The position numbers and the translations under genes were made by a program. Below, in pieces: positions 7,779 to 24,784 of a stretch of 25,231 bases of DNA; positions within the stretch are counted from its first letter, which is position 1, and every line of letters begins with the position of its first letter. The notes beneath the pieces are model-generated. The model did no database searches, was not told the DNA's origin, and was given only the letters and a program-made list of their open reading frames with translations. Source of the stretch: a virus; the IMG/VR virus record IMGVR_UViG_3300022200_001441, positions 1-25,231 of that record; one strand, written 5' to 3'.

Positions 7779-10100
7779 ATGGCTGTAGTTGCTGGTCAAA
7801 AGACATACTACTCCTTCGTAAAAGGACTAGTTACTGAAGCAAGTCCTCTGTTATACCCAGAGAATAGTGCTATTGTAGTAGATAACTTCCTTCTTAATCG
7901 TACTGGTAGTATCCAACGTAGGTTAGGGATGGAGTATGAAGCAGCCCATGTCTTAAGAGACTCTGGTAAAACTGCCGCGTCTTTAGCTGCCTCTGCAATC
8001 AACTTTAATGTCTGGAATAATGTCTCTAATAAACCAACCCTTCGATTTGGGGTAGTACAAATTGGAAGTGATCTTTGGTTCTTTGATTTATTTAAAGATA
8101 CTTTGTCTGCTAATATTAAAAATAGTGGTCTAGCAGTTAACACCACTGGAATTGGGGATACTATTGCTACTGTTTCAGCTATCAATGGTTATCTTATTGT
8201 AACAAGTAAAGAGTTTTCTCCTTTTTATCTTGAGTATGATGAAGCTACTGATACTATTACTAAGACTGCTATCGCATTTTCTATACGAGATCTATTTGGT
8301 ATTGATGATGGCCTTGCAGTTAATAATCGTCCTAGTACTCTGAGTCAAGATCACAAATATAATCTGCTTAATCAAGGGTGGGAATTACCCCAGATCACTT
8401 CTTTCCATTCTGCTCAAGGGGTGTACCCCTCGAACTCAGATATACAATACTTAGGCAAAGATGCTAATGAAGACTTTGATTCTTCATTGATCATCAAACA
8501 GTACTTTGGTAATACTCCTGCACCAAAAGGTAGGACAATTATAAATGCTTTCTCTAGGGGATTGAGCCGACAACAACAAGCAGATGTCTTTATTGTTAAC
8601 TTGTCGGGTAGTGAGTTTGGAGTAGATTATAGTTTTGATTTGGATACTCAATACTTCCAGTCATTAGTAACATCAAACTTTACTTCACTTAATTTAGATA
8701 CTGAAACTAGTAGAATATCTGTGTCTGCATCTTTTTCTGGTAGGATTTTTTACTCTGGAGTAGAGAGTTTAATCACTTCACCGGATAAAAATTCTCCTGA
8801 TTACTCCGGCTTTGTTTTTTTCAGTAAGCTAATCTCTAGTGTGAAGGACTTGGGTGAGTGCTACCAAGAAGCAGACCCTACTTCGGAACACATCTCAGAT
8901 ATTATTGCGTCCGATGGTGGATACATACAGATACCAGATGCAAGCAACATTCACAAGTTAATTCCTACGGATAGATCCCTCATAGTACTAGCAGAGAATG
9001 GTGCATGGGAAATTCTTGGTGATGTCCAATCAGGGTTTAGTGCTACTGGTTATCAAGTCAATAGGGTTAGTAGTATTGGTGCTATTGGCCCCGAAAGTAT
9101 TATAGATGTAGAGGGAACTATTCTATATTGGGCAGAAGGGGGTATATATGTACTTGCTTATGACCAAGCATCTGGGTTTATGCGACCTAAGAATCTTTCT
9201 GCTACTACTATACAGACTTACTACTCCTCCATTCCATCAGTAGCTAGGCAGAATGCCAAAGCATCTTTTGATCCAGAAACTCGTAGAGTATCTTGGTTAT
9301 ACAATGATGATCCAGAGTATACTGGATACACGGAGAAATCTAATTACAATAGGGAACTAATTTTTGACACCTTGTTGCAAGCATTCTACACAAATACCGT
9401 TAATAGAATTCCTGAAGATGCTGATGCACCTATGTTAGCAGACTTTGTGATTATGCCAAACTTTGTTACTACTGATTATGCAGAGCCTATGGTAATTAAT
9501 GGGGATCAAGTACAGATTAATACTGTTGATGTGACTCTAAGCAAAGATGTATTTACTAGGGGAGCTAGTTACACCAAGTATTTGACTGTACTTCCCAACT
9601 CAGCAGGAAATTTAAAGTTCACTTTTAGTAGCTATCGTAGTGGTACTTTCTTTGATTGGTATACTTACAATACTGCTGGTAGTAACTACACTAGTGAATT
9701 GCTGACTGGGTTTGAATTGGCAGGGGATGCTTCTAAATGGAAACAAGCACCCTATGTATCTTTTCATTTTACTAGAACGGAGACTGGATTTGAATCTGAT
9801 GGGCTTGGGGGTCTTGTTGCTACTAATCCTAGTGGTTGTTTTGTTAGTGCTAGATGGGATTTCTCTGACCACGCTAATAGCGGAAAGATTGGAGATGCAT
9901 TCCAAGCCTATAAGCTACTCAGAAATTATATTCCTGTGGATGTTAATGACGACTTTAATTATGGTCAGTCTGTGATTGTTACTAAGAACAAAATTAGGGG
10001 CAAAGGAAAGGCTCTGTCTATGCAGATTACTTCAGAGTCCGGTAAAGACATGAACTTATTGGGTTGGTCTATCCCATTCATAGGGAGTACAGCACCATGA
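7779..10100 (+). CDS. tail tubular protein B (gp12-like tail nozzle)
   Basis: The 773-aa product starts with the family hallmark TYYSFVKGLVTEASPLLYPE then VVDNFLLNRTGSIQRRLGME. It continues with a beta-propeller-like body (DRSLIVLAENGAWEILGDVQ, GAIGPESIIDVEGTILYWAE) and ends at LGWSIPFIGSTAP. It forms the nozzle at the tail tip, through which DNA and ejected proteins leave and to which fibres attach. The length agrees with T7 gp12 (about 790 aa). The stop overlaps the start of the cupin-SET gene by four bases (ATGA). Confidence 0.88.
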   Translation: MAVVAGQKTYYSFVKGLVTEASPLLYPENSAIVVDNFLLNRTGSIQRRLGMEYEAAHVLRDSGKTAASLAASAINFNVWNNVSNKPTLRFGVVQIGSDLWFFDLFKDTLSANIKNSGLAVNTTGIGDTIATVSAINGYLIVTSKEFSPFYLEYDEATDTITKTAIAFSIRDLFGIDDGLAVNNRPSTLSQDHKYNLLNQGWELPQITSFHSAQGVYPSNSDIQYLGKDANEDFDSSLIIKQYFGNTPAPKGRTIINAFSRGLSRQQQADVFIVNLSGSEFGVDYSFDLDTQYFQSLVTSNFTSLNLDTETSRISVSASFSGRIFYSGVESLITSPDKNSPDYSGFVFFSKLISSVKDLGECYQEADPTSEHISDIIASDGGYIQIPDASNIHKLIPTDRSLIVLAENGAWEILGDVQSGFSATGYQVNRVSSIGAIGPESIIDVEGTILYWAEGGIYVLAYDQASGFMRPKNLSATTIQTYYSSIPSVARQNAKASFDPETRRVSWLYNDDPEYTGYTEKSNYNRELIFDTLLQAFYTNTVNRIPEDADAPMLADFVIMPNFVTTDYAEPMVINGDQVQINTVDVTLSKDVFTRGASYTKYLTVLPNSAGNLKFTFSSYRSGTFFDWYTYNTAGSNYTSELLTGFELAGDASKWKQAPYVSFHFTRTETGFESDGLGGLVATNPSGCFVSARWDFSDHANSGKIGDAFQAYKLLRNYIPVDVNDDFNYGQSVIVTKNKIRGKGKALSMQITSESGKDMNLLGWSIPFIGSTAP

Positions 10101-10942
10101 GTCATGCTCTTGTTGAGCTTGCTCAATGTACTGAGGAACAATTACAAGAAGTAATCAAACTCTCTGTATCTGATGAGCAAGTAGAGGTAGATATCGTTCA
10201 TAGTTTTAGTCCCGGACTGTATATTAGAGAGATGCATGTACCTGCTGGTACTATGGTAATTGGTAAGTACCACAATACAAGCCATTTAAACTATATGCTG
10301 AAGGGTAAGTGTGTATTCTCTACCCCTAAGGGGGTAACCACTGAGGTTACTGCCCCATTCCAAGCTACTACTGGGCCGGGAAGGAAGATTGCTTACTTCA
10401 CTGAGGATTCTGTGTGGGTAAATGTCTTCCCCACTGAAACTAGGGATGTAGAAACTTTAGAAAAAGAACTATTTCAACCAGAGACTGCATTAGTAACAGA
10501 GCACCAGTCTTATAAGGCAGCTTATGAGGCTCTAGGAGAGCTTGAGAGAGAAGACTTTAGCCATGCCTGTAGGGAGCTAGGGTTTAGTGAAGAAGACGTT
10601 CGTACAGCCTCTTTAAATGCGTCTGATTGCATACCATTTCCTGATGGTAGCTATAAAGTCATAGTGCAGGACTCTTACATAGAGGGTAAAGGTTTGTTTG
10701 CAACAGCCAAGATTAAATCTGGGGAGGTTATTGCTCCTGCTAGGGTATCAAAGATGAGAACTCCTGCTGGTAGGTACACCAACCACTCAGTTCTGCCTAA
10801 TGCAGAGATGGTAATGTTGCCCAATGGGGATGTGAACTTGGTAGCAACACTAGATATTGAGGGGTCTTCTGGTGGCTGTGTTTTTAATGAGATCACAGTA
10901 GATTATGTAGAGGCTTTTTTGAATACGAGGATAGAAGAATGA
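10097..10942 (+). CDS. cupin-SET fusion protein, predicted protein-lysine methyltransferase
   Basis: I chose ATG 10097 (281 aa) over the in-frame ATG at 10064 because it gives the ATGA overlap used throughout this cluster and has AGGGAG at 10082-10087. Residues about 35-125 are a cupin-like double-strand barrel of a type recurrent in phages: LYIREMHVPAGTMVIGKYHN, then SHLNYMLKG, with His59 and His63 as possible metal ligands, ending at DSVWVNVFPTE. After a helical linker, residues about 185-275 carry the SET-domain signatures in order: EGKGLFAT with IKSGEVI, then RYTNHSVLPNA (the NHS-PN cofactor-binding motif), then NEITVDY (the catalytic Tyr motif). SET proteins methylate lysines using S-adenosylmethionine. 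The gene sits in the slot of T7 gene 13, between the nozzle and the ejection proteins, so a virion protein or an ejected modifier of host proteins is possible. The target is unknown. Confidence 0.8.
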   Translation: MSHALVELAQCTEEQLQEVIKLSVSDEQVEVDIVHSFSPGLYIREMHVPAGTMVIGKYHNTSHLNYMLKGKCVFSTPKGVTTEVTAPFQATTGPGRKIAYFTEDSVWVNVFPTETRDVETLEKELFQPETALVTEHQSYKAAYEALGELEREDFSHACRELGFSEEDVRTASLNASDCIPFPDGSYKVIVQDSYIEGKGLFATAKIKSGEVIAPARVSKMRTPAGRYTNHSVLPNAEMVMLPNGDVNLVATLDIEGSSGGCVFNEITVDYVEAFLNTRIEE

Positions 10943-11418
10943 GTGCAATAGTCTCAGCGATTGGAGCTACGGCAGTTGCTGCTGGTGCATTGGCTGTATC
11001 TGCGGTGGCCTTAGTAGGTGGTGCTGTAGAATCTCGTAAGGCGGGCAAAGCACAACGACAGTCTATGGAAATACAACAAAGACAGGCAGACATTCAAGCT
11101 GCTCGATCTAGGTATGCTACTGTTAGACAGTCTCGTATGACTAGAGGTGCTATGGAACAAGCGGCTGTTTCTCAAGGAGTATCAGGAAGTTCTGGTATCT
11201 TAGGGGCAGCAGCAGGACTCCAAGCTGCTACTGCTAGTGAGCTGGGTACTAGCCTCACCTTACAAGGACTATCGCAACAAGCCACTGCTGCTAACCAAGC
11301 GGCTTCATCTGCTCAATCTAATGCTGCTATCTGGGGAACAGTTGGGGGATTGAGTGGTTCTATCTTTAGTGATCTGGGTGGCTTTAGTACTCTAGGTAAG
11401 AAGGGAGGGACTACCTAG
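10939..11418 (+). CDS. internal virion protein (gp14-like ejection protein)
   Basis: The 159-aa product has an N-terminal hydrophobic helix (about residues 4-28, AIGATAVAAGALAVSAVALV) followed by a long Gln/Ala/Arg-rich helix (AQRQSMEIQQRQADIQAARS) and a Gly/Ala/Ser-rich region. This is the pattern of T7 gp14-type proteins, which leave the virion first and insert into the outer membrane to start the ejection channel. The gene order (nozzle, this gene, two very large internal proteins) supports the call. The ATG overlaps the cupin-SET stop by four bases, and the stop abuts the next ATG. No signal peptidase site is evident. Confidence 0.72.
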   Translation: MSAIVSAIGATAVAAGALAVSAVALVGGAVESRKAGKAQRQSMEIQQRQADIQAARSRYATVRQSRMTRGAMEQAAVSQGVSGSSGILGAAAGLQAATASELGTSLTLQGLSQQATAANQAASSAQSNAAIWGTVGGLSGSIFSDLGGFSTLGKKGGTT

Positions 11419-14400
11419 ATGGCAATCGGAATTACTCCAGAAGAAGCTAGGGCACTAGGAGTCTCCTATGAGGATGCTAGTACTACAAGTAGGAATGTTA
11501 CTCAACAAGTAGCTACCGATAAAGCGTACAATGTTATCTCTAATTATGAGATGGAAAACATTGATAATGCCATTGCTACTTATACAGGGACTACGACTGA
11601 ACCCCTTGATGCAATGGAGTTTATTGCTCTTGACAAAGAACAAGCACAGCCATTAATTGCTGAGACTTCTTTAGTAGAAGAAGCATTTTATGCTACTAGA
11701 TTACGATCTGTTACTGATTCTACAGCAGATATCATGGGGGATTACGACTTCTTCCATAAGGTAAAGGATGATCTAATAGCTACTGGAAGTAGCCCAGAGT
11801 TGGCTCAAGTCTACAAGGAGTTGACTTCATTGACTCCTGAACTGGATAGGGCAGCTATGATGTCTATCTTAGAGGATCAAACAATACCTCAAAATATTAA
11901 AGAACAATCCTTTAAGACCTTCCAACAAAAAGGTGGGGAGCTATTAGATCTTCGACAAGAGTACGTCAATGCTACTGCTGCCTTAGAATCTATAGAAGCT
12001 GACCGAGAGAAGCGGCGATCTGCTCCATTAGATCTTACCTTTCTTCAAGAAAGGTTAGAATGGAATCAAGAAAGAACTAATGAAATCAATGCAGTAGCCT
12101 CACAATTAGACCCTTCAGTATCTTCTTTCTGGTTGGGTGTGGGAGAGATAATTATTCCATTTATGGATCAAGTGTATGTCCAATCATTAAAAGATAAAGT
12201 ACTTGGTGAGGGTGGTGTAGCTAGTGATGTAGCTGGGGCTATTTTATTTGGAGAAAACAAACAACAGATTAGAGAGGCAATACGAAAGATGCCTTTTGAT
12301 CAACGTAAGGTAGCTGTTCGTGCAATGATCGAGGCTGTCAGTCAGTTGCCGGGAGGTGACTACAAGAAAATGATGTACCTCAGTACCTTAACAGATACGG
12401 GGGAGTATGCTACTTGGGAACGGGCCATTGATAATATAGTGGGGGTATTAGATACACTCACTGTAGCTGGCGTATTGGGCAAGGCAATTGTCAAAACAGG
12501 TGCAACGTTACTAAGAACACATCCAGCATCTGCTATAGAAACTGCTCGTATAGCTAGTAGGGCGGAGGCGGCTAGGTTAGCTACGGCTGCATTAATGGAA
12601 GCTACTGGGGATGCTGCTAAGTCTATGGGCACTAGTAAGGTTGAGGTGGCTAATACATATCTCCTACCTAAAATGTCTGATGAAGTTCTTAATGATTTGC
12701 CTACAGATGTAGTACAGCGTCTTAATGAGATTGAAACAAGACATGCTGGTATCTACGATAACCTTAAAACTAGTGGTATTAACTACACAGATGCAGAAAA
12801 GGTCGCTGCTCTTCAACAGACAACAAGAGATATTGCAGAAGTGCAGGGTATGCACTTGCGTATGGAATCTACTACTCTATCTACAGATGGGGAGTCTTTG
12901 TTTGGTACTGCCATGTATGGCAAGACATCTGAGAAATCCTTTGCTAGTGCAGAGGCTGCTGCTAAGGCAGCGTTAGACTCTGGTATACCTGTAGAAGAAG
13001 TTTCCTTCTTTGTTCGTAATGCAAAGACTGGTGAGTTAGATAGAGTCCCTCTTACTGCTGGAGAGTTAACTGAAAAGGGGACTATTCCAACTAGCAGGGC
13101 ACTATTTGGTGGGCCGAAAGGTCGAGGGTTTGGTACAGCTAGTGAGGCCGCTGAGTGGGCGGCTGCTTCTGGTAAGAACCCTAGAGATTTGCAGGTTATG
13201 GAGAGGTTGCCCACTGGTAAGATGAAGCCTATCTTCCTCTCTTTAGGAGAAATTACTTCTTCTGTTTTGACTAGAGCGGAGATGGCAGCAGGGGCTGGGC
13301 CAGCTAGGACTGGTAAGTTTTTTGTGGAGGAGTCCCGATTCTCTCTGGCATCTGTGCCAAAAGGCTCTGAGTTCTACATAGGTAGGACATTCTCTCGTCC
13401 ATTTGATTTACGAGATGCTGCTATTTTCGGTGGTGATAGTATATCTAGGGTAGCAAAGATACAAGGGGCTAGTTATATTGCAGACATTACCTCCAAGTTT
13501 GATAACTGGTTTGCTAGGGCTGCTCTTAAGGCAGCAGACAATGCTACTGCTATAGAGAAACAGTTTTTAGATATGGTTAGGCAAGATGTGTCCTCTCTGA
13601 AAAGAGGGCAGAAGGCTGATCTTTTCAAGGCATTGGAACAAGGGTCAACAGACTCTGTTACTTATACTAGAACAGACTTGGCTACTAAGTTTGGATTAGA
13701 TGAGGGAACTATTAGAGCATACTACACTTACAGGAAAGTGCAGGATCTTTCTTGGTTTCAAACTAATAAGACCTTCCGCAAGAAGCTGGAAGGTATGGGC
13801 ATGAAAGAGGTCAAGGGCATCTCTTCTGTAGATGGTAGACAGTTTGCTGCTCCTCTTACTAGAGAACAGGCTAGTAGTGTTACTCATGTGTATGATGCCA
13901 AACAATCTAAAGTTATCCCAGTTACTAAAGAGTACTTGGATGAGATGTATGCTGCTGGCAATTCCTTAGGTAAGATGCATAGTCCAATCAAGACCTTGGA
14001 TAGTAGGACTTCCCATGTACTAATTGATAACAAGACTACTACCCTTGGTAGGTTGCCAGATAGCCCACTCCCTTACATAGATGGGTACTATCAACGATCT
14101 TACCGAGAGAACTACTTCCTTGATAAAGTTCCTAAGAACGGAATCATGGTAGATGGTAAGTTCATTAATGATCCAGTAATACTAGAGGCTAAGTATGGTT
14201 CTGCTATAGCAGCAGGTACTAGCAAGGGCGTTCTGCAAGGCAAAGTAAATGACCTCAATGCTAATTTAGCTGCTAATGCAGACTACTACTATCGTGTGCG
14301 ACGAGCCAATGAGTTTGATGATGTTGATGTAGCAGAACTACAGTTACGAAAGAGTTACCAGAATGCTTCTAGAGGTAGGGGTGTCCACCTAGAGGGTCAG

Positions 14401-16434
14401 ATAGATAATTCCCTAGCTGCTATTGCTGATCCAATGGAATCTTTATTTAATAATATCCGTACTATGTCTAAGTATGTAGCAACAGATGACTTCATGGCTA
14501 GTTCACAACAACGGTGGGTTAATACATGGGGCAAAGCTACTGGTGGTAAGTACCCATTAAATTTTAAAGATGTTGCAAAGGGTAGACTAACTGACGATGA
14601 GTATGCTTCTGCTAGAGCAGTACATAAGCAGTTAGAAATGATGAACATGGCTACTGGAAAGACTGATGCAATCTGGCGTAACTTTATGCTGGCTGCTTCT
14701 GAAACTCTAGATGGTAGGTCTTTGATGTTAGCTGACATGACTAGAGGGTTGTCAGAGATCAGTCCTGTAGGGGCTGTACGAAGTGTCTCCTCTACACTGT
14801 TCATTGCCCTCCGTCCTATTAGGCAGTTGGTAATACAACCAGCACAGCTTATGCAGTTAGCCTTTGTAAGTCCCTTGTACTATGCCAGTGGTAGAGCATC
14901 CAGAGAGTTGTTGGCTCTGTCTTTATCAAGGGCTACTTGGGGCAATGTAGACCTGACTGCTAAGGTTAATGACATAGGGGCTAAACTCTTTGGAACTACT
15001 CCAAAAGAGTACGAGACTATTGCTAAACACTACTATGATAAGTCTGGTTTGCCATATAGTGTAGATAGTCACTTGTATATTGATGGAATCGTAAAGGATG
15101 TACATGCCAGCCACCTAGATAGTGGGCTGAAGAGGGCAGTGTCAACTGCATTAGCTCCGGTCAGGGCTGTTGTAGGCTTATCTAAAAAGATTGGCTTTGA
15201 TACTGGGGAATTCATTAACTTAACTGGTAGTTGGTTAACTGCTAGAGATAGGTGGATGAAGGCAAACCCCACTATAGCTACCAAATGGGCAGACAAACAG
15301 TATGTAGATGTCATTGATGCAGATGCAAGGGCATTGTCTTACGCCATGACACAACCGGGCAGCTTTGCCTACCAACAAGGCTTGTTGTCTTTACCATTAC
15401 AGTTCATATCAGTGCCACACAAGGCTCTTCTGTCTGTACTTCCTGCTGCTTGGGGTGGTAGTCGTACCCTAAAGGGCATAGAGAAGGCTGGGATAGCTGC
15501 TGGCAATCTAATTATGTTTGGTGGGGTGGGTGTTGGTATAGATAGTGCCCTACAAACAGTCTTAGAGACTACGGGGGCTGTTCTTACCGAAGAAGCGTCT
15601 ATGGGAATTAGGGGTGGATTGATGGATCTTGGTATGAATTCGTTACTAAGAACATTATCAGATGATGAGAATGATGGCACTGCCATTAAGTTCTCTGATA
15701 GCTTTTCTCCAATATCTGATAAGGTAATTCCCGGAGCAGAGATACTTACCCATCTATTAGATGGGGAGGTTAGTGCTTTAATAGGCCCATCTTTCCATGC
15801 ACTGGGAAGATTCAATGAAGTGTTTAATGATATTAAAGTTATTACTGCCAAGCCTGATGCTTCTACTCCCGAGAAAATTGTACAGACTATGGCTTCTGTA
15901 GCTAGTCTAGCCTCTGGGTTTAATGATGGCATTAAGACTATGATAGCTATGAATGCTGGGGTGCTTGTGTCTAAGAGTGGGGATGCAGTAGTAGAAGCTA
16001 CCTACCAAGAAGCTATGGCAAAGATGTTTGGACTACAGACATATGCAGAGGTAGCTACATGGGACATGGCTAGGAAATTGGGGGATCGTAATCAGTTAGC
16101 TAAAGATTGGGCTGCTTTGCTACATGCTAACTACTCTAAACAAAGACTAGCACAAGGTAGTACTAAAGCGGACTTTATGGAATTAGTGAGTAGGTACAAA
16201 GCTCTGGAGAACTTAGTTGATCCTGATATATTAGCCTTGGCCTACAAAGAGTTAGTGAAGTTGGAGACTAGGAGTTTATCTACTACCCAAGATAGTATGC
16301 TTAACTGGCTAATTAATGATGCTATGAATGGGCCAGAAGCTAGACAGAAAGCAATTGATTACATTAATGGTAGTTCAAATTCACAAGAAATAAAGGATGA
16401 TATGATTAAAATCTTAGAGTTGGGGATTAAATAA
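11419..16434 (+). CDS. giant internal virion / DNA ejection protein (1671 aa)
   Basis: This is the largest gene in the window and corresponds by size and place to T7 gp16-type ejection proteins. The sequence is mostly helical and charged, with a few hydrophobic stretches that could cross or enter the membrane, for example AGIAAGNLIMFGGVGVGIDS in the C-terminal third. Residues about 494-545 and 562-607 form an internal repeat. I see no lysozyme or transglycosylase catalytic motif at the N-terminus, unlike T7 gp16. The C-terminal 150 residues are helical and rich in Lys/Glu/Leu. It would be stored in the head core and travel into the cell with or before the DNA. Unlike in T7, it precedes the 666-aa companion. 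Function is inferred from context. Confidence 0.72.
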   Translation: MAIGITPEEARALGVSYEDASTTSRNVTQQVATDKAYNVISNYEMENIDNAIATYTGTTTEPLDAMEFIALDKEQAQPLIAETSLVEEAFYATRLRSVTDSTADIMGDYDFFHKVKDDLIATGSSPELAQVYKELTSLTPELDRAAMMSILEDQTIPQNIKEQSFKTFQQKGGELLDLRQEYVNATAALESIEADREKRRSAPLDLTFLQERLEWNQERTNEINAVASQLDPSVSSFWLGVGEIIIPFMDQVYVQSLKDKVLGEGGVASDVAGAILFGENKQQIREAIRKMPFDQRKVAVRAMIEAVSQLPGGDYKKMMYLSTLTDTGEYATWERAIDNIVGVLDTLTVAGVLGKAIVKTGATLLRTHPASAIETARIASRAEAARLATAALMEATGDAAKSMGTSKVEVANTYLLPKMSDEVLNDLPTDVVQRLNEIETRHAGIYDNLKTSGINYTDAEKVAALQQTTRDIAEVQGMHLRMESTTLSTDGESLFGTAMYGKTSEKSFASAEAAAKAALDSGIPVEEVSFFVRNAKTGELDRVPLTAGELTEKGTIPTSRALFGGPKGRGFGTASEAAEWAAASGKNPRDLQVMERLPTGKMKPIFLSLGEITSSVLTRAEMAAGAGPARTGKFFVEESRFSLASVPKGSEFYIGRTFSRPFDLRDAAIFGGDSISRVAKIQGASYIADITSKFDNWFARAALKAADNATAIEKQFLDMVRQDVSSLKRGQKADLFKALEQGSTDSVTYTRTDLATKFGLDEGTIRAYYTYRKVQDLSWFQTNKTFRKKLEGMGMKEVKGISSVDGRQFAAPLTREQASSVTHVYDAKQSKVIPVTKEYLDEMYAAGNSLGKMHSPIKTLDSRTSHVLIDNKTTTLGRLPDSPLPYIDGYYQRSYRENYFLDKVPKNGIMVDGKFINDPVILEAKYGSAIAAGTSKGVLQGKVNDLNANLAANADYYYRVRRANEFDDVDVAELQLRKSYQNASRGRGVHLEGQIDNSLAAIADPMESLFNNIRTMSKYVATDDFMASSQQRWVNTWGKATGGKYPLNFKDVAKGRLTDDEYASARAVHKQLEMMNMATGKTDAIWRNFMLAASETLDGRSLMLADMTRGLSEISPVGAVRSVSSTLFIALRPIRQLVIQPAQLMQLAFVSPLYYASGRASRELLALSLSRATWGNVDLTAKVNDIGAKLFGTTPKEYETIAKHYYDKSGLPYSVDSHLYIDGIVKDVHASHLDSGLKRAVSTALAPVRAVVGLSKKIGFDTGEFINLTGSWLTARDRWMKANPTIATKWADKQYVDVIDADARALSYAMTQPGSFAYQQGLLSLPLQFISVPHKALLSVLPAAWGGSRTLKGIEKAGIAAGNLIMFGGVGVGIDSALQTVLETTGAVLTEEASMGIRGGLMDLGMNSLLRTLSDDENDGTAIKFSDSFSPISDKVIPGAEILTHLLDGEVSALIGPSFHALGRFNEVFNDIKVITAKPDASTPEKIVQTMASVASLASGFNDGIKTMIAMNAGVLVSKSGDAVVEATYQEAMAKMFGLQTYAEVATWDMARKLGDRNQLAKDWAALLHANYSKQRLAQGSTKADFMELVSRYKALENLVDPDILALAYKELVKLETRSLSTTQDSMLNWLINDAMNGPEARQKAIDYINGSSNSQEIKDDMIKILELGIK
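12898..13239 (+). repeat. internal protein repeat in the giant ejection protein
   Basis: Two tandem units of about 50 residues share the pattern LFG...K...F, then A-rich helix EAA..AA.SG, then a strand and TG turn. Unit 1 (residues 494-545) contains FASAEAAAKAALDSGIP and AKTGELDRVPL. Unit 2 (562-607) contains FGTASEAAEWAAASGKNP and LPTGKMKPIFL. The DNA has diverged, so the duplication is old. Confidence 0.55.
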
Positions 16435-20183: not shown

Positions 20184-20491
20184 TCTTCATTCTCCATTCT
20201 AAGATTGATTTCTTCTTGTACCATGAGTAGGTCTAAAGGATCACCTGTTCTAGCTTGATCACTTGACAACAACTCCTCCCCATTCAAGTAACAACCACTA
20301 CCAACATCCCTAAAGAATGCTTCATACCTATCTGCTCTTTGTCTCTGTCTTTTACCTCCTTTGTTATTAAGAACAGAGTGTACCGTTGTCCTAGATAGAT
20401 CCAAAGACTCAGCAATCCATGATATAGACTTACCATCACGATGTAAAGCCTTGATGACAGACTGCTGAATGTGGTTCACATCATTACTCAC
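20168..20491 (-). CDS. small helix-turn-helix DNA-binding protein (107 aa)
   Basis: Residues about 9-45 form a homeodomain-like or resolvase-type helix-turn-helix: SVIKALHRDGKSISWIAESL, then DLSRTTVHSVLNNKGG, followed by a basic stretch (KRQRQRADRY). The C-terminal half is acidic (EEINLRMENEEWDYE) and could contact a partner or oligomerise. It starts with GTG, overlapping the end of nrdJ by 8 bases, with no clear ribosome binding site, so translation is probably coupled; a GTG at codon 5 is an alternative. There is no catalytic domain, so it is more likely a regulator than a recombinase. A role in switching expression is inference. Confidence 0.65.
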   Translation of the reverse strand: MSNDVNHIQQSVIKALHRDGKSISWIAESLDLSRTTVHSVLNNKGGKRQRQRADRYEAFFRDVGSGCYLNGEELLSSDQARTGDPLDLLMVQEEINLRMENEEWDYE

Positions 20492-22175
20492 AACTTTTAA
20501 TGCCTGTGTCTACATCTATGTAGCAGGCTTGTGGTTCATCAGTAGTAGTTCGTTCAACTAAGATACCAAACCTTTTGCCTGATGGATTAAAGGTCGTGAC
20601 ACCCTTACAACCAAGCTCCCATGCCTTAGTATAGATAGCCTTGAACTTATCCCAAGGTAGGGTAGGATCTACGTTGATCGTCTTCGATACAGCAGAGTCT
20701 ACATACTTAGAAGATAGAGCCAACACAGCAAGGTGCTCATCCTCTGTACATTGCATAGCTGTCTTACCTTTAGTTCCGTACTCACGGTAAGCATAGTCAC
20801 TCACTGTCTCTACTATAGGGCCATTGAAAGTTTGTATGGTACGGTCATACTCATGGCTAAACACTGGCTCAATGCCAGAGGATACATTGTCAGCAGTTAG
20901 ACTGATAGTTCCTGTAGGTGCTATGCTAAGTAGGTGACTGTTCCTAATGCCATGCTTCTTGATTAGCTTTTGTACTGAGTTCGGGAGGGTCTGGATAAAC
21001 TCTCCTTTAAGGTAGTACTTAGCATCGTAAAGAGGGAAGACACCCTTCTCACTAGCAAGTAAAGCACTAGCCTTGTAAGTCTCATCTCTAAACACTCTCA
21101 GGACTTCCTCAAGCCACTCTAAGAAGGCTGCTGAACCATACTCGTACCCTAGTATCTCCCCTGCATTGGCTACCCCTGTAAGCCCTAAGCCCATCCTACG
21201 TTTGTTGTAAGATTCTTTCTCTTGTTCTACTAATGGGAAAACTGTGTTGTCATGGATGTTATCCATAGCCCTTGTCACTATGGGGATGTCTTGTTTAAAC
21301 TGCTCGAAGTCAAAGCCTACGTCCGTAGTTACGTACTTAACTAAGTTGTAACTACCCAACAGGCAAGCACCGTATGGTGGTAGTGGCTGTTCTCCACAAG
21401 GATTAGTAGCCGCAATCTCCTCACAATAGTACAGGTTATTCATCTCATTAATACGGTCAATGAACAGTACACCCGGCTCTGCCCATTCCCATGTAGATCG
21501 CATGATCTCTTCCCATAGGTTAGCTGCATTTACAGTCTTGTATACCCTACCCTCAAAGGTAAGGTTGAAGGATTTGTTCTTAGTAACACACTCCATGAAC
21601 TCATCAGTCACACCAATAGAGATGTTGAAGGCAGTGAGTTGATCACTGTTCTGCTTGGCTCTAAGGAACTCTTCAATGTCTGGATGGTCTACCCTAAGCA
21701 CACCCATCTGAGCACCCCTACGATGACCTGCACTAGCTATAGTCTTACATATAGCATCATAGATCTGCATGAATGATACTGGGCCAGAGCTACGACTACC
21801 AAGAGATACAATGTTATCTCCCTTAGGTCGTAGGTTACTGAAGTCATACCCTATACCACCACCTAAGCGCATAGTCTCCGCAGCTTCTGTAGCTGTCTGC
21901 ATAATAGACTTCATTGAATCCTCTACTGTGCCACTGACAAAACAGTTGAAAGCAGTAAGAGTACGAGGGGCACCAATGGCAGCTTGTGTCCTACCACCAC
22001 CCATAAATCTTTGATTCAGTAGTATGCTACGTAAAGCAAGGAAGTGTTCATGGTTGTCCTTGAGAGTAGAGGCAAACCTTGTCTGTGCTTCATAGAAAGA
22101 CTCACCTTCAAGTCTATACTTCTCTGCATGTTTCTCTTCACTAAGTCTCAGTGTTGGCCCATATTGTTTATTCAT
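20484..22175 (-). CDS. nrdJ: ribonucleoside-triphosphate/diphosphate reductase, adenosylcobalamin-dependent (class II)
   Basis: This 563-aa enzyme reduces ribonucleotides to deoxyribonucleotides using a radical made from vitamin B12. Visible residues are the redox Cys78 (TAFNCFVSG) and the active-site loop ATNPCGEQPL with Asn258, the thiyl-radical Cys260 and Glu262. The partner Cys271 is in GACLLGSYNL, and the phosphate-binding loop SIAPTGTISLTADN lies at about 417-430. The C-terminal tail has two Cys (551 and 562, CYIDVDTGIKSCE) that may shuttle electrons from thioredoxin or glutaredoxin. There is no ATP cone and no class I radical subunit nearby. The length fits short phage NrdJ proteins. 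AGGAG lies 8 bases before the ATG. Activity would depend on host cobalamin. Confidence 0.95.
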   Translation of the reverse strand: MNKQYGPTLRLSEEKHAEKYRLEGESFYEAQTRFASTLKDNHEHFLALRSILLNQRFMGGGRTQAAIGAPRTLTAFNCFVSGTVEDSMKSIMQTATEAAETMRLGGGIGYDFSNLRPKGDNIVSLGSRSSGPVSFMQIYDAICKTIASAGHRRGAQMGVLRVDHPDIEEFLRAKQNSDQLTAFNISIGVTDEFMECVTKNKSFNLTFEGRVYKTVNAANLWEEIMRSTWEWAEPGVLFIDRINEMNNLYYCEEIAATNPCGEQPLPPYGACLLGSYNLVKYVTTDVGFDFEQFKQDIPIVTRAMDNIHDNTVFPLVEQEKESYNKRRMGLGLTGVANAGEILGYEYGSAAFLEWLEEVLRVFRDETYKASALLASEKGVFPLYDAKYYLKGEFIQTLPNSVQKLIKKHGIRNSHLLSIAPTGTISLTADNVSSGIEPVFSHEYDRTIQTFNGPIVETVSDYAYREYGTKGKTAMQCTEDEHLAVLALSSKYVDSAVSKTINVDPTLPWDKFKAIYTKAWELGCKGVTTFNPSGKRFGILVERTTTDEPQACYIDVDTGIKSCE

Positions 22176-22395: not shown

Positions 22396-22703
22396 TATAA
22401 ACTCTCCATCAAAAGGTCAATGTAATGTTTTGCTTTCTCTAGGTCAGCCTTACCACCCTTTGAATTGTACCTACAGATGTACTTAATGACGTTACCGGCA
22501 CAGAAGCCTATGTCGTTAGCCTGTATAAACTCTACAGGCTGTATCTTCATGTCCTTGTAGTGGCTACCCCCCACTTGTACACCAAGTGCCCTTGCTTTTT
22601 CATGCTCTTCAAAGGTCAACTCTGTCTGTTTATACATTGCTCTATGAGCGTAATCCCACTCAGAAGGTGTTACATTATCTAAAGATTTTTTCATTTTATC
22701 CAT
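22395..22703 (-). CDS. DUF3310 protein (putative nucleotide kinase-associated)
   Basis: Residues about 42-101 match the DUF3310 pattern: VQVGGSHYKDMKIQPVEFIQ, then NDIGFCAGNVIKYICRY, then KGGKADLEKAKHYIDLL. This small family is widespread in phages and is often labelled nucleotide kinase or SaV-like without biochemical proof. It lies among nucleotide and DNA metabolism genes, which agrees with a supporting role there. Two starts are possible: Met1 at 22703, where GAGGG lies only two bases upstream, or Met4 at 22694, which makes an ATGA overlap with the preceding gene. I kept the longer form. The stop overlaps the next ATG (TAATG). Confidence 0.8.
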   Translation of the reverse strand: MDKMKKSLDNVTPSEWDYAHRAMYKQTELTFEEHEKARALGVQVGGSHYKDMKIQPVEFIQANDIGFCAGNVIKYICRYNSKGGKADLEKAKHYIDLLMESL

Positions 22704-23386
22704 CGCCCTCTTTTGTTGAGTACCATAGGTACAAGTATTGGTGTGCCTCCAAGTGAATCAAACTTGTATATGTCTACCCATGTCCATGAATCTTTTAATC
22801 CATACAGGGCGTTGTAATCATTCAACATTGCAGGAGGTAAGCCTGCTGTCATTAACTTTCTAGCTGGAATGTTATCATGATTGCCTTTAGAAATTACCAT
22901 AGTGGGGAACATCTCTTGAAGCAATGCACAATCCCTCTTTGCATGGTAGTACTCAGTCTCTGCATCTAAAGCATCAGGCTCTGACTCGTGATAAGAACCC
23001 CTGTGATGGTCTATAATATCCCCTACGTTGAGTATTGTATCACACTTATACAACCTTTTGGTAGCGTATAAGAAGTCTAGTGCATCCTTGTGTTGATATG
23101 GTAAGTGCATATCAGATATAACTAGAATGTTCTTAATATCATTTCTAATTACACCACATCCTAACACTGGCCGCTTCAGTACATTACGAATAGCGTACCT
23201 AGCAGCCACTGAATTAGGATCAAGTAAGCATCCCACTGACATAGCCCACCTAAGTTGGTGCATGTCTGCATAATAACTAATCTCAAATACGCTGTGATGA
23301 TGCCCCTGTATAGAGTTGTGTGAGTACTTAGCTGCATTGTTCCTAGTGTTAGAACTTACACTATGAGTCATGAGAGTATCAATCAT
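22691..23386 (-). CDS. calcineurin-like metallophosphoesterase with circularly permuted motif order
   Basis: The 231-aa product has all the metal-binding motifs of calcineurin-like phosphoesterases, but in an unusual order. Residues about 6-80 carry the part that normally ends the domain: MTHS (His8), NSIQGHHHSVFEI (GHxH at 28-31), then WAMSVGCLLDPNSVAA and RPVLGCGVI. Residues about 86-209 carry the part that normally begins it: NILVISDMHLPYQ (DxH at 92-94), LNVGDIIDHH (122-128), SKGNHDNIPARK (168-177), DSWTWVDIYKF. The last residues, TPILVPMVLNKRGRW, are again what I would expect at the usual C-terminus. All ligand positions are kept, so an active phosphatase or nuclease is plausible. The substrate is unknown. 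The start has GGGAG upstream; both ends overlap their neighbours. An assembly error is the main alternative. Confidence 0.82.
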   Translation of the reverse strand: MIDTLMTHSVSSNTRNNAAKYSHNSIQGHHHSVFEISYYADMHQLRWAMSVGCLLDPNSVAARYAIRNVLKRPVLGCGVIRNDIKNILVISDMHLPYQHKDALDFLYATKRLYKCDTILNVGDIIDHHRGSYHESEPDALDAETEYYHAKRDCALLQEMFPTMVISKGNHDNIPARKLMTAGLPPAMLNDYNALYGLKDSWTWVDIYKFDSLGGTPILVPMVLNKRGRWIK

Positions 23387-24136: not shown

Positions 24137-24784
24137 TTATTTATCCTCATAAGTTAATGCTTGCCAACTAGTCCTAAGCTCTGCAATAGAACTAATTATA
24201 TCATAAATTTCCTTAGCAACAACAGTCGTTTCTTTCTGTGCTGTTGATTCCATCCTTTGATTACACACTCTGGCAAAGGCTACGAGGCTACCAGTCCAGT
24301 ACCATGAGGTCATCATAGACTGTGGCAGTACCATCCTTGCCTGCTCAGGACATACACCCATGCTCAGTAGCTCCTTGTACACGCTCGTAAGCCTCAGCAT
24401 AGCCCTGTGGTAGACAGCGCCAGCCACACCACTATGTTGGATAGGGTTAGCAGAAGATCCCTGCTTGACGTTATCAGCAGCCTGCCTCCATACATCTGGC
24501 ACATGGAATGTCGGAGGATCACTAACATACCTGCGACTTACTTCATTCCAGACTAAACCTACCTGATGCTTGACCAACTGTCTGGCTACGAACACTGGGG
24601 CTTCTACTAAGACTGTGACTTGCACATGGGCAAAGGGTGTCCAGTGATTATGCTTTGCTAGGTACTTGATCAAGTTAATATCTTTGTTACTAAGAACAGT
24701 AACTGTCTTATCAAAGCTAACTCTAGCACTGTTAACCACAGTGAGGTCACTTCCCATGTGATCAATATAGTCTACACTACTCAT
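24137..24784 (-). CDS. thyX: flavin-dependent thymidylate synthase
   Basis: The enzyme makes dTMP from dUMP using methylene-tetrahydrofolate, FAD and NADPH. The ThyX signature is present in variant form at residues 72-86: KHQVGLVWNEVSRRY instead of RHRxxSxNExSxRY, keeping His73, Asn80, Glu81, Ser83, Arg85 and Tyr86. The N-terminal part has HNHWTPFAHVQVTVLVEAPV, with the expected His residues before the flavin-binding strands. The C-terminal part has GVCPEQARMVLPQSMMTSWY, with the conserved Arg150 and LP. The length of 215 aa fits. Together with nrdJ it covers dNTP and dTMP supply. The ATG overlaps the stop of the upstream 63-aa gene. Confidence 0.93.
   Translation of the reverse strand: MSSVDYIDHMGSDLTVVNSARVSFDKTVTVLSNKDINLIKYLAKHNHWTPFAHVQVTVLVEAPVFVARQLVKHQVGLVWNEVSRRYVSDPPTFHVPDVWRQAADNVKQGSSANPIQHSGVAGAVYHRAMLRLTSVYKELLSMGVCPEQARMVLPQSMMTSWYWTGSLVAFARVCNQRMESTAQKETTVVAKEIYDIISSIAELRTSWQALTYEDK

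Follow-up and report, generated by a model that had tools for sequence, protein, structure and literature searches.

A phage cupin-SET protein family encoded beside DNA-ejection genes: a candidate modifier of ejection proteins in podoviruses

Results

The window, by which we mean the whole 25.2-kb IMG/VR virus record analysed here, encodes in order a terminase, a portal, a protein of phrog_7931 where a scaffold would be expected, a capsid, tail proteins, a tail appendage, a protein in which a cupin domain precedes a SET domain, a 159-aa protein and an internal virion protein of 1671 aa. The window portal shares 51-60% identity with those of MW202697, MEP401/402, Klyazma and GP100, and by sequence comparison the portal and tail genes are closest to those of Zobellviridae and similar podoviruses; the carrier is a virus of bacteria. 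On the minus strand the window also encodes a ribonucleotide reductase large subunit (20484-22175), a thymidylate synthase (24137-24784) and a metallophosphoesterase (22691-23386). The cupin-SET gene and its surroundings comprise the following features:

7779..10100, plus strand: upstream neighbour, tail appendage or tubular tail B-like protein (phrog_8094, E 6e-192)
10082..10087, plus strand: Shine-Dalgarno-like AGGGAG, ~10 nt 5' of the ATG (from the sequence)
10097..10942, plus strand: cupin-SET gene, 281 aa (phrog_34170 match, E 2.6e-68)
10178..10480, plus strand: predicted cupin (RmlC-like jelly-roll) domain, residues 28-128 (AF2 model; VIA-align Z ~10 to cupins; homologous to phrog_12032 and phrog_24280)
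10481..10645, plus strand: predicted helical linker, residues 129-183 (AF2 secondary structure)
10646..10927, plus strand: reduced SET domain, residues 184-277 (Pfam PF00856; PDB profile matches; VIA-align to MLL1 and vSET)
10685..10693, plus strand: GxG motif, G197-K-G199 (G199 in 127/127 relatives)
10781..10801, plus strand: NHS..PN motif, N229-N235, predicted part of the SAM-binding site (N229 in 126/126 and H230 in 125/126 readable relatives)
10901..10906, plus strand: D269-Y270, catalytic tyrosine position (Y270 in 127/127, D269 in 114/127 relatives)
10939..11418, plus strand: downstream neighbour, 159 aa, ATGA overlap (phrog_8168)
11419..16434, plus strand: large internal virion protein, 1671 aa (phrog_12003 "internal virion protein", E 3e-33)

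The open reading frame runs from an ATG at 10097 through 281 codons to a stop at 10940-10942, and ATGA overlaps join it to the genes on both sides. These limits, together with the Shine-Dalgarno-like element, confirm the gene as it had been called in an earlier interpretation made without database searches (the sequence-only reading), which proposed a cupin-SET fusion and a predicted lysine methyltransferase. The downstream protein and the protein annotated as internal virion protein B in the Zobellviridae phage ICBM2 are members of one family (phrog_8168).

Three SET motifs, GKGLFAT, RYTNHSVLPNA and EITVDY, occur in the expected order, as the sequence-only reading had noticed, and exceed chance. 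The profile search that it had proposed gave a borderline score for the window protein itself, 22.2 bits against Pfam SET (E 1.9e-4), 0.2 bits short of the 22.4-bit cut-off, but its relatives pass: of 26 SET-bearing records that we searched, 23 exceed the cut-off, and all 18 members of the first alignment give matches (best 3.4e-8). A search of the PDB by sequence returned no close relative for the single window protein, and a profile of the family matches SET structures of the MLL type and of PBCV-1 (E 7e-6 to 1e-3). Across 127 complete relatives, mostly ~28-53% identical to the window protein, the positions of the SAM-binding and catalytic residues are nearly invariant, and E265 is kept in every one. 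Two copies with variant SET motifs, one with NQS in place of NHS (L124:7875-8789) and one with AN in place of PN (L115:5941-6807), are possible decayed enzymes.

An AF2 model of the window protein, built from an alignment of 42 sequences that comprised only this protein and those of the fetched loci, reached a pLDDT of 93 and a pTM of 0.89. In VIA-align comparisons of this model, the SET half (residues ~181-272) superimposes on the MLL1 SET domain (Z 10.0, 1.9 Å over 80 residues, 30% identity) and on PBCV-1 vSET (Z 9.0, 2.0 Å over 80 residues, 29% identity), and residues 28-128 match many cupins with Z ~10, among them HP0902 (Z 10.4, 2.6 Å over 85 residues). Because the model is confident and both parts find structural matches of their own kind, the cupin and SET halves are both real as far as prediction goes, and the proposed fusion is borne out to that extent. 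The MLL1 superposition covers both the NHS-PN and the DY segments, from which we infer the knot that these motifs would form. A profile of the cupin-only relatives retrieved weak cupin matches from the PDB and no phage chain.

The window protein departs from familiar members of both superfamilies, and in these two respects the sequence-only reading needs correction. First, 35 residues separate the GxG and NHS motifs in 53 of 54 measured relatives, as against 41-63 in standalone bacterial SET proteins and, by our count on the profile alignment, 69 in MLL1; the domain lacks most of the SET-I region. SET-I usually forms one side of the substrate groove; a SET-I of the usual size is typical of characterised enzymes but variable across the superfamily, and it is not decisive for SET membership. 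With SET-I mostly absent, the groove may be incomplete, and other elements, perhaps from a partner, would have to complete the lysine channel. Second, the cupin has no conserved metal ligands: the putative ligands H59 and E62 are kept in 84/127 and 49/127 relatives, position 59 being H, Q or Y and position 62 variable, and the second-motif region has no conserved histidine in the alignment of relatives, its K97 being present in 127/127. We therefore rule out a cupin metal enzyme, since the His/Glu ligands of the two cupin motifs are not conserved. Purifying selection acts on the protein, the median dN/dS being 0.05 in the cupin and 0.10 in the SET domain.

The sequence-only reading had regarded SET domains as sporadic in phages; this family is instead widespread in podoviruses, with relatives encoded on 538 IMG/VR stretches. 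A cupin-only query gave at least 573 IMG/VR matches, and among phage records the full fusion was found in 8 and the cupin alone in ~50, with a few bacterial genome contigs (L124-L128) also carrying the full fusion. At least three phage layouts carry relatives, namely the Zobellviridae-like layout of the window, a P22-like one and a BPP-1-like one, in most cases immediately ahead of the first ejection gene. Cupin-only relatives occupy the same gene slot in other phages, and since many relatives are of this form the SET domain is not generally essential. When SET presence is mapped onto a tree of 101 cupin domains, 5 changes are required, and supported branches force at least 4 of them; this tree is uninformative on how common each form is because our queries steered the sampling. 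The SET domains of both cupin clades separate from standalone bacterial SETs (aLRT 86, in a SET tree of few columns), so that one ancestral cupin-SET fusion followed by losses is possible on the sequence evidence; separate SET origins in the two clades found no support, this tree of few columns being compatible with one origin.

The slot itself is best defined by its neighbours. The window gene follows the tail tube/appendage gene and precedes the gene for the first internal virion protein, an order that agrees with the synteny of Zobellviridae, P22-like phages and T7. We compared 96 downstream neighbours, of which 61 belong with phrog_598 and 14 with phrog_21132 by sequence match (each named "DNA ejection", and the two sets may overlap); four match phrog_8168, the family of the window's own neighbour, and more than 90% of the downstream neighbour proteins start with Met-Ser. 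In P22-like phages the gene falls between the head closure gene (gp10) and the gp7 "DNA ejection" gene, which is the place of P22 gp14. Two Zobellviridae encode a GNAT acetyltransferase in the slot:

L224:6636-7100: GNAT acetyltransferase of ICBM2 (Pfam E 1.1e-5)
L226:6755-7201: GNAT acetyltransferase of GP100 (Pfam E 3.3e-5)

The GNAT in this slot ("pc40", Cobavirus/SIO1) has already been equated with T7 gp13 (PMC6775973). T7 gp13 (L139:808-1224) is confidently modelled as a GNAT over its full length, with Z 12.2 to GNAT domains across 127 of its 138 residues, a likeness of fold only, as a sequence profile gave no GNAT match. With GNATs in the slot of the window's family and a GNAT fold for T7 gp13, the placement of the gene in the position of T7 gene 13 by the sequence-only reading was right. 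The slot holds ~100-aa proteins with no significant Pfam match in MEP401, CVT22, CW02 and MW202697, which on sequence are perhaps decayed GNATs. These proteins (L221:6747-7043, L222:6740-7051, L225:6801-7091 and L227:6686-6982) slightly resemble the end of T7 gp13 at their C-termini, and GX1 (L223) has a Gly/Ala-rich protein of 230 aa in the slot. For P22 gp14, sequence comparison did not support a GNAT and gave one weak glyoxalase match; its family, DUF2824, was found in 0/42 cupin-bearing records and in 3/3 P22-like controls, a search that diverged copies could escape.

GNAT and cupin genes also occur side by side. In BPP-1 the GNAT gene bbp24 overlaps the cupin-only gene bbp23 between terminase and portal (L345:5480-6399), a BPP-1-like locus (L071:2398-3782) has a GNAT-like gene overlapping a cupin-SET gene in the same place, and in zth2-2 a GNAT lies one gene downstream of the cupin-SET gene. 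Strict mutual exclusion of the two is ruled out by their joint presence in L071 and zth2-2, and they are therefore not simple substitutes. A comparison of 84 downstream gp7-like proteins, 45 of them from loci with SET, revealed no lysine column that tracks the presence of SET, the largest gain in lysine frequency being 0.15.

Discussion

Here we describe a family of phage proteins in which a cupin is joined to a reduced SET domain, most often encoded immediately ahead of the ejection genes of podoviruses. The family is already in PHROGs, where phrog_34170, which matches residues 21-274 of the window protein, carries no function, and single entries bear SET names. UOF81456.1 is a full-length cupin-SET relative, and the "SET domain containing protein" A0A6J5PTS6, found by structure, is a SET protein of an uncultured phage. 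Our search of the open-access literature, with subscription papers outside its scope, found no earlier description of the cupin-SET family. SET domains as such are familiar from both bacteria and archaea (PMC3980110). The SET enzyme and the cupin are thus each of a known kind, and what is new is the architecture and its genomic role.

We consider the best explanation of the locus, and one with about an even chance of being correct, to be that the protein modifies ejection proteins while the virion is assembled. The cupin barrel would serve as a non-enzymatic adaptor and the minimal SET domain as a SAM-dependent methyltransferase; the protein would be produced from the late structural operon, act most likely during virion assembly, and methylate an amino group, probably of a lysine, on a neighbouring ejection protein, for which the gp14/gp7-type protein encoded just downstream would be the prime candidate. 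It would thereby fill the slot that GNAT-fold proteins occupy in T7 (gp13) and some other Zobellviridae. Enzymatic activity, substrate and timing are all inferred here, and we favour an assembly-time modifier because of the position of the gene and its neighbours, because it alternates or pairs with folds that modify amino groups, and because its catalytic residues are near-invariant. Counting against it are the loss of most of SET-I, the existence of cupin-only relatives, the lack of a lysine column that follows SET, and the coexistence of GNATs with cupin-SET genes.

Several of these points would suit a non-catalytic assembly factor, in which the cupin is a chaperone or a tail or ejection component and the SET domain is accessory, SAM-binding or purely structural, with no methylation. 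Cupin-only relatives share the slot, SET-I is largely gone, the metal ligands of the cupin are unconserved, and T7 gp13 goes by the name "probable scaffold protein" in Pfam. However, conservation within the domain is among the highest at the residues that serve known SET enzymes in SAM binding and catalysis (Y270 and N229 without exception where readable), and a purely structural SET fold would need none of them. We regard this alternative as fairly unlikely.

We think it quite improbable that the protein is directed at the host, being packaged or made during infection and methylating a host protein for takeover or anti-defence; action on host proteins was one of the options in the sequence-only reading. 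Phage GNATs can have host targets (Rac, as cited in PMC10504331), but in each of several distinct phage layouts the cupin-SET gene overlaps or abuts its neighbours at a fixed place among the late structural genes, outside early or accessory regions. The suggestion that the product is packaged found no support. Assembly requires T7 gp13 and P22 gp14, neither of which is known as a major virion protein, and this is a mild argument against packaging.

A short tail fibre or adhesin is very unlikely: it follows the PHROG and GenBank names of cupin relatives, phrog_12032 ("short tail fiber protein") and phrog_24280 ("tail fiber adhesin") matching residues 12-134, but the model shows a compact protein of cupin and SET domains that has no features of a fibre, we found no experimental basis for the name, and the gene stands in the gp13/gp14 position away from the tail spikes. 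The region of these matches corresponds to 10130-10498 of the window, and we found no evidence behind the tail-fibre names.

Comparison with known systems helps to place the proposed modifier. PBCV-1 vSET, a viral methyltransferase for H3K27, and MLL-type SETs share the SET fold and motif order with the window protein, which differs from them in lacking most of SET-I, in its fusion to a cupin and in its location within a phage structural operon. T7 gp13, the Cobavirus/SIO1 GNAT and P22 gp14 sit in the same slot, directly before the first ejection or internal virion protein; the GNATs resemble SET in being an amino-group-modifying fold, whereas GNAT and cupin-SET proteins are not homologous. 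The cupin-only podovirus proteins (phrog_12032 and phrog_24280; BPP-1 Bbp23, BA3, VvAW1) have a homologous cupin and in most cases likewise precede the ejection gene, but lack the SET domain and are mostly ~136-190 aa long.

To our knowledge, SET methyltransferases have been studied almost entirely for chromatin. We put forward, tentatively and as a view that is more doubtful than the modifier itself, that podoviruses regularly modify amino groups of their DNA-ejection proteins when building infectious virions, by SET methylation here and, in T7, Zobellviridae and BPP-1-like phages, by acetylation through GNATs. In the present family a cupin would act as adaptor, and the substrate groove of the minimal SET domain may be complete only together with a partner. 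The current annotation of the cupin family as short tail fibres is probably wrong, and our reading offers a concrete, testable role for it as well as for the gp13 slot of T7-like phages, which is poorly understood. That a widespread phage SET family with a near-invariant core is encoded before the injection genes, where it alternates or co-occurs with acetyltransferases, suggests a part for protein modification in podovirus assembly or genome delivery.
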